Assembly (NCBI RefSeq): GCF_902806695.1
Contig: NZ_CADCXN010000069.1
Coordinates: forward strand, 1 to 64,000
Reading direction: 5' to 3'
From: Candidatus Methylobacter favarea
GTDB lineage: Bacteria > Pseudomonadota > Gammaproteobacteria > Methylococcales > Methylomonadaceae
DNA length: 64,000 nt
Of this stretch, positions 13,074-32,885 are shown piece by piece. The translations under genes and the position numbers were made by a program. Under the pieces are notes generated by a model. It did no database searches, was not told the origin of the DNA, and saw nothing but the letters and a program-made list of their open reading frames with translations. How positions within the stretch are numbered: the first letter of the stretch is position 1; the number at the start of each line of letters is the position of its first letter.

Positions 13074-13340
13074 CTATTTCTTACCGCCCTTGTGGCCGGC
13101 TTCTCTTGCTTCTTCCGGAGTAAATTCATGAGCACTGCCTTTTTCATGGGCGGCTTGGCCGCCCTTGTGACCGGCTTCTCTTGCTTCTTCCGGAGTAAAT
13201 TCGTGAGCACTGCCTTTTTCATGAGCGGCATGCCCTCCTTTACTGGCAATTTCCCGTTGTTTCTCTTCGTCCATTGAAGCAAAACCCCGCTTTGCCGTGG
13301 AGCCTTTTTTATCGTTCGCTGATTGTTTTTGTTGAGTCAT
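13074..13340 (-). CDS. KGG-repeat general stress protein
   Basis: An 88-residue, highly charged protein of the stress-induced KGG family (Bacillus GsiB and E. coli YciG relatives). The ATG at 13340 (MTQQKQSAND) has a GAGG ribosome-binding site 8 nt upstream. After RGFASMDEEKQREIASKGG come two nearly identical 25-residue units of the form KGGxAAHEKGSAHEFTPEEA plus REAGH, ending KGGKK. The units are also near-identical at DNA level (about 75 bp each), so the gene has grown by recent tandem duplication. Such proteins are hydrophilic, disordered and made under desiccation or stationary-phase stress. Confidence 0.85.
   Translation of the reverse strand: MTQQKQSANDKKGSTAKRGFASMDEEKQREIASKGGHAAHEKGSAHEFTPEEAREAGHKGGQAAHEKGSAHEFTPEEAREAGHKGGKK
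13084..13234. repeat. 75-bp tandem duplication inside the KGG gene
   Basis: Two consecutive copies of a 75-bp unit (each beginning around CCGCCCTTGTG and running through CTTCCGGAGTAAATTC) differ at only a few positions. Copy number is likely to vary between strains. Confidence 0.8.
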
Positions 13341-25291: not shown

Positions 25292-25370
25292 TGTAGGGTG
25301 GGCAACGCTTTTTGCCCACCATTCATTCCATATTGAAGGTCAGTGGGCAAAAAGCGTTGCCCACCCTACA
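25292..25370. repeat. 79-bp perfect inverted-repeat element between iscA and nifU
   Basis: Two 28-bp arms, beginning TGTAGGGTGGGCAACGC and ending GCGTTGCCCACCCTACA, are exact reverse complements around a 23-bp centre. The element abuts the iscA stop codon. In RNA it makes a very stable hairpin between iscA and nifU. Elements of this GTAGGGTGGGCA type are widespread miniature repeats. Confidence 0.85.
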
Positions 25371-29162: not shown

Positions 29163-29900
29163 TCACTCATTGTCGGGACTTAGGCCGGCAACCGGATTGA
29201 TCAGTTGCGCCTGATGGGCTTTGAATAACTGCAAGCTGCGATAAATTGCCTGTACTGACTTGCGCGGCGTGATGGTCGCCCCGGCAAACTGATCGAATTC
29301 ACCGCCATCTTTTTTGACGGCCCATTGTGCCGCGCTTAAATTGTCCAGGGAGCGGCCGACAAAATTTGATATCCAGTCCGACTTTGCGGCCTCGATTTTA
29401 TCGCCCAGGCCTGGCGTTTCCTTGTGGCTGAGTACACGCACGCCCAGAATATTGCCATTACGGTCTATACCTGCAATCATGTTGATTGCGCCAGAATAGC
29501 CGTCCGGTGCGGTAAATTTAAAACACACGGCAGTGACATCGCCGGACTTTTTAGCGATATAAACTGTTGTTTTGTTCGCGCCGATATTGTAGTCAGCGGA
29601 TGGAATGGTCAAGGTATCTTGCAGCATGTCATTATCATGAAGAGCGGCTGGCACGACTTCTTCCAGCGATTTTGCTAAATCTTCAGCCAGCCGCTGTTGA
29701 ATGGCGCCTTCTGTACTGCAATTGGTCACGCCCAGCAGCACGCTGGCAAGCAAGGCGAAGCCCGCTAGAATTCCTGTTTGAAATTTCAGGGTGGGTCTGA
29801 GCTTTTCCAGGTTCGACGGTTCCAGCCAGTTTTTCAGGAATTCCCGGTAAACCGCAATTTTTTCTTTCAGGCATTGGAAGGTTGCGGGATCACATCTCAT
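29163..29900 (-). CDS. rnfG: Rnf complex flavin subunit RnfG
   Basis: A 245-residue subunit with one N-terminal membrane helix at about residues 43-60 and a periplasmic FMN-binding domain. The covalent FMN site is AGATITPRKSV near residue 207, where the threonine is flavinylated; SHKETPGLGDKI is the other family block. The N-terminus is about 35 residues longer than usual, so a later start is possible. It is separated from rnfD by an unusually large, repeat-filled 373-bp gap. Confidence 0.93.
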   Translation of the reverse strand: MRCDPATFQCLKEKIAVYREFLKNWLEPSNLEKLRPTLKFQTGILAGFALLASVLLGVTNCSTEGAIQQRLAEDLAKSLEEVVPAALHDNDMLQDTLTIPSADYNIGANKTTVYIAKKSGDVTAVCFKFTAPDGYSGAINMIAGIDRNGNILGVRVLSHKETPGLGDKIEAAKSDWISNFVGRSLDNLSAAQWAVKKDGGEFDQFAGATITPRKSVQAIYRSLQLFKAHQAQLINPVAGLSPDNE

Positions 29901-30273
29901 GGCTTAGGCTCTGGCTCAAACATTTAAAATTTAGATCGTTTCCACGCTCTAGCATCATTGTCCTCAGTTAAAAACATCGTCGTTCCGGCAGAGCCTGATC
30001 CGGTCAGGGATTCACTCCGGGCTTTCCTGCCCGGAGCCCTTCGGGTAAATGCAAATCCGTTCCTGACGGATTAGTCACACCGGGCCATCCTGCCCGGAGC
30101 CCTTCGGGTCAATGCCAATCTGTTCAAGACAGATTGGTGCCGGGGAGAGCCGGACTAATTCGCCTGGAGCGAATTTGGATGTGCGAAGCCCGAACCGCAA
30201 GGATGCAGTGAGCAGCCCAGAAGCCAGGGAAGGCACGGCTACTATTGCCGGGTTACGCTATCGCTAACCCGAC
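29901..30273. repeat. Repeat cluster splitting rnfG from rnfD
   Basis: This gap inside the rnf operon holds two direct copies of a structured unit (30015-30076 and 30077-30139), each made of CCGGGC/GCCCGG stem, CCCTTCGGG mini-hairpin and a third stem. A further copy in reverse orientation lies at about 30153-30195 (AATTCGC-CTGGA-GCGAATT). A REP-like palindrome CCGGGTTACGCTATCGCTAA begins at 30248. The third stems read AATCCGT/ACGGATT, AATCTGT/ACAGATT and AATTCGC/GCGAATT, so paired bases change together. Confidence 0.8.
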
Positions 30274-31347
30274 CTACGATTTCGGGATTTCAAGGGCTTT
30301 GCCTTTGTGGTCGCGCCCGTAAATACGCGGCCGGATGTAATGATCTATCAGCGGTGTCGCTGCATTCATCAACAGTACGGCAAAACCCGCTCCTTCGGGA
30401 TAGGCGCCCCAGGTACGAATTACGAACATCAGCAGACCGCAGCCCGCGCCGAAAACCAGCTGTCCTGCCGGCGTATTCGGCGAGGTAACATAGTCGGTGG
30501 CAATGAAAAAGGCCACGCACATCATCGCGCCTGAATTCAAATGCAGAAATGGACTGATATAATGCTGGCTGTCCATGACATGAAAAATGCCGGCCAACAG
30601 CGTAACTGTCAGCAATAAGGCAAGCGGAATATACCATTGAATAATATTTTGGCGGATCAGCCAGACCCCGCCCAGACCCAGCAGCAATGTCGAGGTTTCA
30701 CCCAGGCTGCCGCGCGTCCAGCCGATAAAATTAAGCAATGCGGAATAATCCTGCAAAATTTCCGGAAGCAAACGGTTTTGCGAGAATTCAGTTTTGATAA
30801 AACCGAGCGTCGTCGCGCCGGTGCTGGCGTCGATATCGGCTATTCCGGTAAAAGTAATACGCAAGCTTTCAGCAAGACCCGGCGAAGCCGGAAAAAACAA
30901 CGGCGATACATTCGCCCAGGTCGTCATTTCCATAGGAAAGGAAATCAGCAAAGCGACTCTCGCCAGCATCGCGGGATTAAACAGGTTTTGTCCAAGGCCG
31001 CCATAAACCTGTTTGCCTAAAACTATAGCCAGCCCGGCGCCGACCACGCCGAGCCACCACGGCGCCCAGGGCGGCAGCGTTATCGCCAGCAGCCATCCTG
31101 TCAATACTGCTGAGCCGTCCATAATGACGGGTTTGGCAACTCTGCCCGCCAGACGCAGGCAGAAGGCTTCGAAAAAAACAGCCGATAAGACGGTAATAAT
31201 AAACAGATTCAAAGCCGGCCAGCCAAAACACCAGATCCCAAACGCGGTGGCAGGCGACAGCGCCAGCATGACTTGCCACATAATATGACTAACGCTGGTT
31301 TTAACGCCTACATGCGCGCCGCTGCTGGGTTTTATATAAGCGATCAT
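30274..31347 (-). CDS. rnfD: Rnf complex membrane flavin subunit RnfD
   Basis: A 357-residue integral membrane subunit with about ten helices. The covalent FMN attachment motif is DASTGATTLG at about residue 170. GYIKPSSGAHVG-type start (here MIAYIKPSSGAHVG) is typical. It overlaps rnfC by ATGA (31344-31347). RnfD passes electrons between RnfC/B and RnfG. Confidence 0.95.
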   Translation of the reverse strand: MIAYIKPSSGAHVGVKTSVSHIMWQVMLALSPATAFGIWCFGWPALNLFIITVLSAVFFEAFCLRLAGRVAKPVIMDGSAVLTGWLLAITLPPWAPWWLGVVGAGLAIVLGKQVYGGLGQNLFNPAMLARVALLISFPMEMTTWANVSPLFFPASPGLAESLRITFTGIADIDASTGATTLGFIKTEFSQNRLLPEILQDYSALLNFIGWTRGSLGETSTLLLGLGGVWLIRQNIIQWYIPLALLLTVTLLAGIFHVMDSQHYISPFLHLNSGAMMCVAFFIATDYVTSPNTPAGQLVFGAGCGLLMFVIRTWGAYPEGAGFAVLLMNAATPLIDHYIRPRIYGRDHKGKALEIPKS

Positions 31348-32885
31348 ACCAATGCCCCTTGCTCGGCTTTTAGCCGTTCCCGCTCTGCCTTTGCCGCCAG
31401 ACGGGCCAGCTCTTCCTCGCGCTGTTGCAGAGCCATGCGCTCCAAGCGCGCGTTGCGCGCATCGATCAGGCGCCTGGTTTGCTCGGCTTTATGCTGCGCC
31501 TGCTGTCTGGCCATGACTTCGCCCGAGGCATATTTAAAATACTGCACCAGCGGAATATTGGAGGGACAGATATATGAGCAGCAACCGCAACTGATACAGT
31601 CTTTCAAGCCTAAATCTACAGTTGCCTCCAGTTGATTGGTGCGAATAGTATTCGCCATATCCAGAGGCCGCAAGCCGGCGGGACACACGCTGACGCAACT
31701 GGCGCAGCGGATGCAGGGCTGTTCATCAGTATTTTTCAATTCACTTTGTGTTAGCGCCAGAACGCCGCTGGTGGCTTTGACGGTAGGTAGTCCTGTATGC
31801 GGCATAGCATCGCCCATCATCGGGCCGCCCATAATGATGCGCGCGGTTACTTCCGGATTCACTTCGCAAAAATCGAACAGTTCAGAGATTAACGTGCCGA
31901 AAGGAACTTCCACATTCATCGGACGTTTCACTGCGCCGCCCGCTACCGTAATCACCCGGCCAAGCAAAGGCTGTCCATGACGAATTGCTTTATGGACGGC
32001 ATAAGCGGTGCCGACATTATGAATAGTCACACCGATTTCGGAGGAACGGCAGCCAACGGGAACTTCCCTGCCTGTTACATAACGGATCAATTGCCGGTCC
32101 CAACCCATCGGGTAGCGGGTCGGAATCTGGATGACCTTAATCAGAGAATACGGCTTTGCTGCAGTCTTCATGGCAAGAAAGGCGTGCGGTTTGTTGTCTT
32201 CAACCGCCACCACGGCGTTTGTGGTTTTTATGCCGGGCCGTCCCCCTTCGGGTAAATGCAAATTCGCTCCCGGCGAATTTGTCATGCCGTGCAGCATCAA
32301 ACGCACTCCGTCGATAATCTGTTCGGCGCGTTCCTGCATCAGGCGGTCATCGCAGCATAAATAGGGTTCGCATTCCGCCCCATTAATGATCAGGGTATCA
32401 ATATGGTTTTCACGCCCCATATTGAGCTTGACCGCAGTCGGAAACGTTGCGCCGCCCAAGCCGACAATGCCTGCCGCGCCGACGCGCAAACTGATATCTT
32501 CGGGCGCTAGCTGGAACGGGTCTGTGATGACAGGGCTTGCCAGCCATTCGTCTTTGCCATCGGTTGCAAGCACGATGGTTCGAATCGGCAGAGCGGACGG
32601 GTGGGGCGCCGGATAATCGTTTACATCAAGAATGACGCCCGAGCTCGGGGCATGGACGGGCGCGGAAATCATGCCTTGACTATAGGCCAATAATTGTCCT
32701 TTCAGCACTTTTTCACCGACTTTAATCACGGGCTCCGCGGCTTTGCCGACATGCTGCTGCAGCGGAATATATAATTTTTTCGGCAAAGGGAAGTTGCTTG
32801 CTATCGGCAGCGCCGCCGTCGCGGCTTTGTGCTCCTCGGCATGGACACCGCCGCGAATACGCGGTTTCGAGAAAAAACTTAACAT
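31344..32885 (-). CDS. rnfC: Rnf complex NADH-binding subunit RnfC, with an inserted repeat
   Basis: A 513-residue peripheral subunit. FSKPRIRGGVHAEEHK begins it; GRENHIDTLIINGAECEPYL holds the FMN/NADH-site glycine and glutamate region; two [4Fe-4S] motifs are CIRCASCVSVCP and CISCGCCSYICP at about 375-425, followed by a charged helical tail. Around residues 201-220 the chain reads HGMTNSPGANLHLPEGGRPG, where relatives go almost directly from the helix to IEDNKP; this piece is encoded by a dispersed hairpin repeat (32231-32289). The frame is kept, so the protein is probably functional. Confidence 0.94.
   Translation of the reverse strand: MLSFFSKPRIRGGVHAEEHKAATAALPIASNFPLPKKLYIPLQQHVGKAAEPVIKVGEKVLKGQLLAYSQGMISAPVHAPSSGVILDVNDYPAPHPSALPIRTIVLATDGKDEWLASPVITDPFQLAPEDISLRVGAAGIVGLGGATFPTAVKLNMGRENHIDTLIINGAECEPYLCCDDRLMQERAEQIIDGVRLMLHGMTNSPGANLHLPEGGRPGIKTTNAVVAVEDNKPHAFLAMKTAAKPYSLIKVIQIPTRYPMGWDRQLIRYVTGREVPVGCRSSEIGVTIHNVGTAYAVHKAIRHGQPLLGRVITVAGGAVKRPMNVEVPFGTLISELFDFCEVNPEVTARIIMGGPMMGDAMPHTGLPTVKATSGVLALTQSELKNTDEQPCIRCASCVSVCPAGLRPLDMANTIRTNQLEATVDLGLKDCISCGCCSYICPSNIPLVQYFKYASGEVMARQQAQHKAEQTRRLIDARNARLERMALQQREEELARLAAKAERERLKAEQGALV
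32231..32289. repeat. Hairpin repeat inserted in frame within rnfC
   Basis: Plus-strand CCCTTCGGGTAAATGCAAAT runs into the 9-bp stem CAAATTCGC-TCCCG-GCGAATTTG. It is the same element as those at 30037-30072 and 30099-30137 in the rnfG-rnfD gap. Confidence 0.8.

Follow-up and report, generated by a model that had tools for sequence, protein, structure and literature searches.

How does a hairpin-forming repeat come to lie within the reading frame of a conserved gene, and is such a case one of a kind? This question is raised by the rnfC gene of Candidatus Methylobacter favarea, which is found in a stretch of 64,000 nucleotides (contig NZ_CADCXN010000069.1, positions 1 to 64,000), in the following called the window. 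A preliminary description had claimed that the hairpin repeat of the gap between rnfG and rnfD also lies within rnfC, is read through in frame, and adds about 20 residues at a place where other RnfC proteins are short.

The Repeat Copy Within rnfC

The rnfC gene (31344..32885, minus strand) has 513 codons, and both the ORF list and the profile matches place it across the repeat copy as one open frame. It lies in what we take to be an rnfA-B-C-D-G-E operon, between rnfB and rnfD, the gene names other than rnfC being our assumption. Profile searches identified the product as full-length RnfC/RsxC (NF003454, E=1e-166; TIGR01945, E=8.8e-162) with the Pfam domains RnfC_N and Complex1_51K, and the best Complex1_51K stretch stops at residue 201, adjoining the insert.

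A repeat search of the window grouped a copy at 32219-32281 with the tandem units at 30012-30137 as one family, and a covariance model recovered the rnfC copy in its own genome with E=6.4e-14, so that the proposed identity of the two repeats was borne out. The proposed edges (32231-32289) had to be moved to 32228..32281 (minus strand) by comparison with full units in relatives, that is, by alignment with their one-unit and two-unit alleles and by the covariance model. The copy comprises 54 nt, equal to a 63-nt unit minus 9 nt in hairpin 3, and encodes residues 202-219 (TNSPGANLHLPEGGRPGI), thus 18 residues and not about 20; H199-G200-M201 are part of normal RnfC and lie outside the insert. The unit starts with CAAATTC directly after a TGA (32282..32284, minus strand), which is formed by the second and third base of the Met201 codon together with the base that follows and is the presumed insertion target. 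Its end is a mutated TAA (GGCATAAAAACC).

In an AlphaFold2 model of RnfC, the only protein modelled (43 sequences, mean pLDDT 69), residues 202-222, with the insert, are predicted to form a loop between a helix (187-201) and a strand (223-229), with pLDDT below 50 at residues 205-217. The five best Foldseek matches of this model were all RnfC chains.

Length, Hairpins, and Copies of the Repeat Unit

The full unit is 63 nt long (CAAAT...RTGA) and contains three hairpins according to an alignment of 38 of the 47 copies found, namely AAATCTG..CAGATTT, CCC-GAA-GGG, and one that is variable; two of the three keep their pairing through changes on both sides. In a mixed set of 38 copies, 95.8% of the cells were paired, double changes occurred in 11 of 18 pairs, and the covariation score was 0.399 versus 0.164, a score reached by none of 500 shuffles. 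For coding copies (38 of the 51 sequences given, 34 distinct) the pairing was 97.1%, again with 11 of 18 pairs double-changed and none of 500 shuffles reaching the score; both tests used the structure derived from the 38 mixed copies, some of which recur in the coding set. When the rnfC copy of the window was folded alone, no significant structure was detected (z=-1.34). The structural evidence for the unit comes from covariation across copies and not from the fold of this single copy.

Counting of copies, as had been suggested, revealed 29 covariance-model matches at E<=0.01 in the genome of the window, 24 of them at E<=1e-7. The five remaining matches are weak, and a related second element is among them. 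The pattern CCCTTCGGGTNAATGCNAAT is present in 26 of 151 family genomes, and a reversed control pattern had no matches. The rnfG-rnfD gap contains a full 63-nt unit (30012..30074, minus strand; covariance model E=1.1e-22) and a second, tandem unit (30075..30137, minus strand; E=1.5e-18), both found by the repeat search. Beside this pair lies a diverged third element with another middle part (30151..30215, plus strand), which is a weak covariance-model match (E=4.3e-4) and forms the inverted-repeat pair I3 with the rnfC copy.

The third element belongs to a second dispersed family (GGACTAATTCGCC.GGAGCGAATTTGGA, then another tail), which was observed at window positions 30151-30215 and elsewhere in the same genome at C124:23732-23811, C97:10080-10160, and C91:38152-38231. 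It adjoins the 63-nt unit in several places, has the first hairpin in common with it, and gives weak model matches. Two further repeats were seen in the window. Positions 25292-25370 hold a perfect inverted repeat with 28-nt arms and a 23-nt loop (TGTAGGGTGGGCAACGCTTTTTGCCCAC), perhaps another REP-like element, and positions 13084-13233 hold two tandem 75-nt copies that are 93% alike, perhaps a repeated protein motif.

The RnfC Site in Relatives

For a survey of the site 80 named relatives were fetched, and a script could parse the site in 64 of them, leaving 16 unparsed. A short loop (as in LMLHGMETENAVVAIE) is present in 52 of the 64, while four have 8, three have 14, three have 21, and two have 42 additional residues. 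The solved RnfC structures of Azotobacter (8ahx), Clostridium tetanomorphum (7zc6), and Acetobacterium woodii (9eri) are all gapped at the insert site as well. The gap that had been expected at residues 201-220 thus exists, with a precise span of 202-219, and the residues of the insert were seen neither in these three structures nor in the 52 relatives with the short loop. The allele with 21 additional residues corresponds to one full unit and that with 42 to two, whereas those with 14 and 18 are shortened units. The alleles with 8 additional residues (L076, L078-L080) hold an unrelated palindrome, GTAGAGACGCGATTAATCGCGTCTCTAC or a near variant. All 13 RnfC inserts that were read are multiples of three and free of stop codons, whereby the reading itself demanded a matching downstream frame.

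With up to 2 mismatches, the palindrome GTAGAGACGCGATTAATCGCGTCTCTAC was also observed as a separate dispersed repeat in 6 of 61 sampled family genomes (G022, G026, G038, G041, G047, G050). It is absent from the genome of the window, and the carriers of the alleles with 8 additional residues lie outside the 61-genome sample.

A quick RnfC tree of 66 rows was calculated after removal of duplicates and of entries with an unparsed site or ORF (L125, L131-L133, L136, L138, L140-L142, L144, L146-L150). On this tree the state of the unit (9 rows) requires 8 changes, at least four of them being forced by well-supported branches, and the state of the palindrome requires 4, at least two of them being forced in the same way. 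Close pairs differ in state (L074/L084, L081/L135). Both states fit the tree no better than shuffled labels, and therefore gain, loss, and exchange at the site are indistinguishable. Judged from these sequences, the RnfC site is a repeated landing place for elements. The first 38 nt of the rnfC unit of the window are identical to five of seven rnfC units at other loci, and each of the further copies from the same genome that were compared shows 5 or more mismatches to them. Therefore, the rnfC insertion looks old and later shortened, doubled, lost, or exchanged, and not like a fresh jump.

Copies in Other Protein Families

The copy in rnfC is no lone case, as 13 protein families carry the unit in the frame designated +0. 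This result is based on 248 distinct copies from the fetched loci without L013-L041, and thus on a survey and not a census. Coding families were defined with ORF and codon filters, clustering, and naming by NCBIfam and Pfam profiles, and the terms "internal," "tail," and "leader" were assigned by eye. Some loci came from searches that favored ATG-type copies or the +0 peptide, and for this reason a frame-neutral subset was counted apart.

Internal +0 sites were found in RnfC, HrcA (one to three units), TilS, ComF/GntX, a spermine-synthase-like membrane protein, RsmD, PepN, and YlqF, and N-terminal +0 copies in HypA, TrhP (tandem units), the ABC permease PedC, Uma2, and a Ham1/RdgB family protein. 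Translation of the unit would yield TNSPGANLHLPEG peptides, and the predicted protein junction at the unit edge in a carrier is ...QER followed by MTNLSGTDLHLPEG. The genome of the window has four coding units in three genes, i.e., rnfC, the spermine-synthase-like gene (two units), and the RdgB-like gene. Copies at two other loci could be assigned to sampled genomes, the HrcA copy of L166 to G109 and the HypA copies of L171 to G024:C1. Empty orthologues were demonstrated for the RnfC and HrcA sites among the 13 families.

The ORF filter was passed by 92 copies, of which 63 are in +0. The other 29 include C-terminal tails in frame -2 in a histidine-kinase and a tetrapyrrole-methylase cluster (one member of each was scanned), leaders upstream of the likely start (L269/L220, L305, L159), copies adjoining assembly Ns (L052), a tandem copy that is out of phase upstream of hypA (L046), ORFs of doubtful status, a probable false match (L291), and antisense internal copies.

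In three PedC genes from three genomes, AGGAG or GGGAG directly precedes the unit's own ATG, and the family profile starts only at residue 40, past the unit (L048); both observations speak for an N-terminal extension that is translated. The extension is less certain in HypA, TrhP, Uma2, and RdgB, where the copies could be untranslated leaders with a downstream start.

Several arrangements were observed in addition. In the RsmD gene at L280:1106-1939, the DPPFG motif is directly followed by a tandem pair of sense units, and another unit, in antisense, is situated close to the C-terminus; all three are in frame. The TrhP loci L296, L300, and L224 have N-terminal tandem arrays, and the number of units varies between species. 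At the hypA loci L042, L043, L046, L066, and L167, one to several tandem units with a spacing of 63 or 64 nt end at the hypA start; hairpin 3 takes in the start region ATGCATGA, with a possible effect on translation initiation.

Junctions of the Insertions

The HrcA site allows a direct comparison of empty and filled alleles. HrcA was found in 52 of the 61 sampled genomes, and in 34 of these 52, including the genome of the window, the alignment of the protein with the filled query is split into two pieces, between which about the unit is left out. At the DNA level, the empty allele GAGCGCATGAACCAGGGC (L352) stands against a filled allele of another species (L047), which consists of GAGCGCATGA, 63 nt ending in GGCATGA, and ACCAGGGC. 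The two differ by exactly 63 nt, located 3' of a TGA, which fits a 60-nt element with duplication of the TGA and a 63-nt element without duplication alike.

In 9 of the 13 coding families (HrcA, RnfC, HypA, PedC, RdgB, TrhP, ComF, TilS, RsmD), the first unit comes directly after a TGA; in the other four this triplet is TCA (two families), GCA (one), or ACA (one). The motif ATGAC spans the left junction in six of the 13 families. The rule is weaker for the 121 noncoding copies than in genes, because these are preceded by GCA in 60 and by TGA in 37 cases; 87 of them end in TGA. As the unit in genes mostly follows a TGA and usually ends in TGA, single as well as tandem insertions add multiples of 21 codons. 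Long terminal inverted repeats were not found among the aligned units. The genome of the window has three Y1_Tnp matches, and their fetched flanks contain no unit.

Reading Frame and Translation

Of 11 internal sites, eight have the unit in the sense frame +0 (TN..G..LHLPEG), none in another sense frame, and three in antisense, i.e., the second unit in ComF, the third in RsmD, and one in a DUF4912 protein. These three show that the frame bias is no absolute rule. The expectation was derived from a simulation in which units were placed 3' of every TGA, on either strand, in 25 genes of the window; among the frame-open insertions, 13.1% were in +0 with 89 noncoding donor units and 33.1% with 42 coding donor units. 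In the frame-neutral searches, seven of eight internal sites were in +0, where the expected fraction is 0.131 with noncoding donors (P 4.7e-6) and 0.331 with coding donors (P 0.0025). For all 11 internal sites the respective values are P 9.9e-6 or 0.0084, and if the C-terminal tail of the histidine kinase (frame -2) is counted as internal, seven of nine sites are in +0 (P 1.9e-5 or 0.0079).

An in-frame TAG is present in 34 of 67 distinct noncoding 63-nt units. The 42 coding units have no TAG by selection; the wider coding set was chosen for openness, and thus its lack of stops is no independent evidence. Five RnfC and eight HrcA loci, however, were found with a DNA pattern that is blind to the position of the TAG, and all of them are open. 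Together with the frequent TAG in noncoding units, this strongly implies that the peptide is read. From this conservation of the frame we infer that the insert is translated, and the claim that the repeat is read through in frame holds in the sense that the full-length RnfC ORF is open across the unit. A codon-position test gave no clean third-position signal, with mixed coding/noncoding ratios of 2.0, 0.69, and 1.14.

Proposed Origin and Alternative Explanations

Quite probably, the feature in rnfC represents a copy of a small mobile repeat that occurs in Methylobacter and its relatives and is tolerated inside proteins. The unit is most likely non-autonomous, a hairpin element entering next to a TGA; insertion would occur 3' of the TGA, and a transposase may act on the unit in trans, using it as a single-stranded substrate flanked by hairpins. 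Insertions in the xTG|A phase would be read as a polar, turn-rich peptide, TN.(S/P)G..LHLPEG..AG.P, and they would be kept because this peptide does no harm at a protein end or in a loop on the surface, while insertions in other phases would mostly be purged. The peptide probably has no catalytic role. A single entry of the unit into RnfC within the Methylobacter group is probable; later the unit would have been cut down to 14 and 18 residues, doubled to 42 residues, lost, or exchanged. In other species, an unrelated palindrome would have entered RnfC at the same place.

We put forward, tentatively, a more far-reaching possibility, namely that the unit is a dual-coded mobile element, selected as a three-hairpin DNA or RNA and also as a portable 21-residue peptide in one frame. 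As insertion would occur beside TGA and the unit ends in (A/G)TGA, an ATGA target, be it a start or an internal Met codon, would regain a start-like codon and receive a complete in-frame unit, and the element could thus spread through coding sequence at little cost.

Three other explanations have to be considered. The unit could be a regulatory RNA element, for example an attenuator or a stability hairpin, that is kept in operons and selected for the sense orientation, with the coding copies as a by-product. The strong covariation, the sense orientation at 8 of 11 internal sites, and the units found in tandem upstream of hypA and between rnfG and rnfD would be in accordance with this explanation. 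However, orientation alone leaves unexplained that eight of eight sense insertions are in one of two frames (P 2e-5 or 0.004), the presence at the same gene, RnfC, is patchy among close relatives, and a comparison of window positions 29800-32500 with Rfam yielded nothing up to E=1, so that we regard a regulatory origin as unlikely. A different view is that the insert is transcribed but not translated, because the ribosome hops from the ATG before the unit to the ATG after it and produces a protein that is devoid of the peptide. Palindromic elements in the mitochondria of the yeast Magnusiomyces, which are mentioned in PMC6649704, are a precedent for such translational bypassing, the hairpins are maintained, and identical ATG codons flank the unit in HrcA and in most RnfC alleles. 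Yet the flanking codons are unlike in PedC, PepN, the spermine-synthase-like gene, and the rnfC of the window (ATG/ATA), and the conservation of frame and the lack of stops in the RnfC and HrcA inserts described above make bypassing very unlikely.

The last explanation, which we consider hardly credible, does without any element and attributes the inserts to a length-variable RnfC loop that resembles the repeat by chance or to assembly errors in metagenome bins. All eight named unit-bearing rnfC loci are indeed from metagenome-assembled genomes, but these are eight separately assembled records with the unit at the same codon, and the match to the repeat is at the DNA level and includes the hairpins. 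We thus favor insertion of a small mobile repeat that is tolerated within proteins.

Comparison With Known Systems

The occurrence of such insertions means that conserved enzymes can gain loops or tails of 21 residues in one step. The carriers belong to a free-living lineage with cultivated members; closely related species offer empty and filled alleles for comparison, the number of tandem units varies, and the frame bias can be measured. In such a lineage the old question whether inserts of this kind are neutral, selected, or targeted becomes directly testable.

Elements of the IS200/IS605 type and elements mobilized by RAYTs have hairpins near both ends, insert 3' of a short target without duplication, and have a target-like end. 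The methanotroph unit resembles them in its hairpins near both ends, in its presumed insertion 3' of TGA, and in the target-like end. The association with a Y1 transposase that characterizes these elements was not seen, as the fetched flanks of the three Y1_Tnp matches in the genome of the window contain no unit.

Intragenic copies have also been described for REPs, and passages of Di Nocera (2013, PMC3733652) report REPs inside ORFs as well as different REPs at about the same recB site in two Xanthomonas. The string "Methylo" is absent from the main text of that article. Many intergenic units lie between the arms of a CGTC-type palindrome (CCGGCA before the unit, GCCGGAATGACG behind it), and with a loose pattern both arms were found in 38 of 121 noncoding copies, which is reminiscent of REPs of the GTAG/CGTC type. 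However, a REP is a palindrome of 20-40 bp with a GTAG/CGTC tag at one end, while the unit has 63 nt, three hairpins, a TGA end, and no tag in genes, so that it falls outside this class. For the gammaproteobacterium Coxiella, passages of PMC5896051 describe QMITE1 and QMITE2, small non-autonomous repeats of which some lie in frame in ORFs; they are 150-400 bp long, have direct repeats as well as inverted repeats at their termini, and the in-frame cases in the middle of ORFs that are named there are hypothetical proteins. The methanotroph unit shares with them that it is a small gammaproteobacterial repeat found in frame in ORFs, but it is shorter.

Protein-coding palindromes were reportedly called a unique feature of Rickettsia in the title of an earlier paper. 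The elements in question, RPE-1 to RPE-7 of Rickettsia and WPE of Wolbachia (PMC3767692, PMC6649704), are small palindromic repeats in many unrelated genes, which according to passages of PMC3767692 leave the frame intact and lie at solvent-exposed places; the same passages mention that orthologues may hold different repeat groups and that ATGAC is a frequent motif in RPE-4, RPE-6, and RPE-7. Compared by description, the methanotroph unit is alike in being a dispersed palindromic family with in-frame copies in several unrelated, likely functional ORFs, and the ATGAC at its left junction in coding families is reminiscent of RPE-4/6/7. It differs in its length of 63 nt, three hairpins, tandem arrays, and its free-living gammaproteobacterial host, and perhaps in its strong bias for one frame. 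Among the papers listed by a search of openly accessible literature on Methylobacter repeats and on coding palindromes in bacteria, none was recognized as dealing with the methanotroph repeat. The presence of different repeats at one site of orthologues is precedented by the Rickettsia and Wolbachia elements and by intragenic REPs, whereas a three-hairpin 63-nt unit with TGA junctions, a single-frame bias, and methanotroph hosts is new, as far as our literature searches reach.
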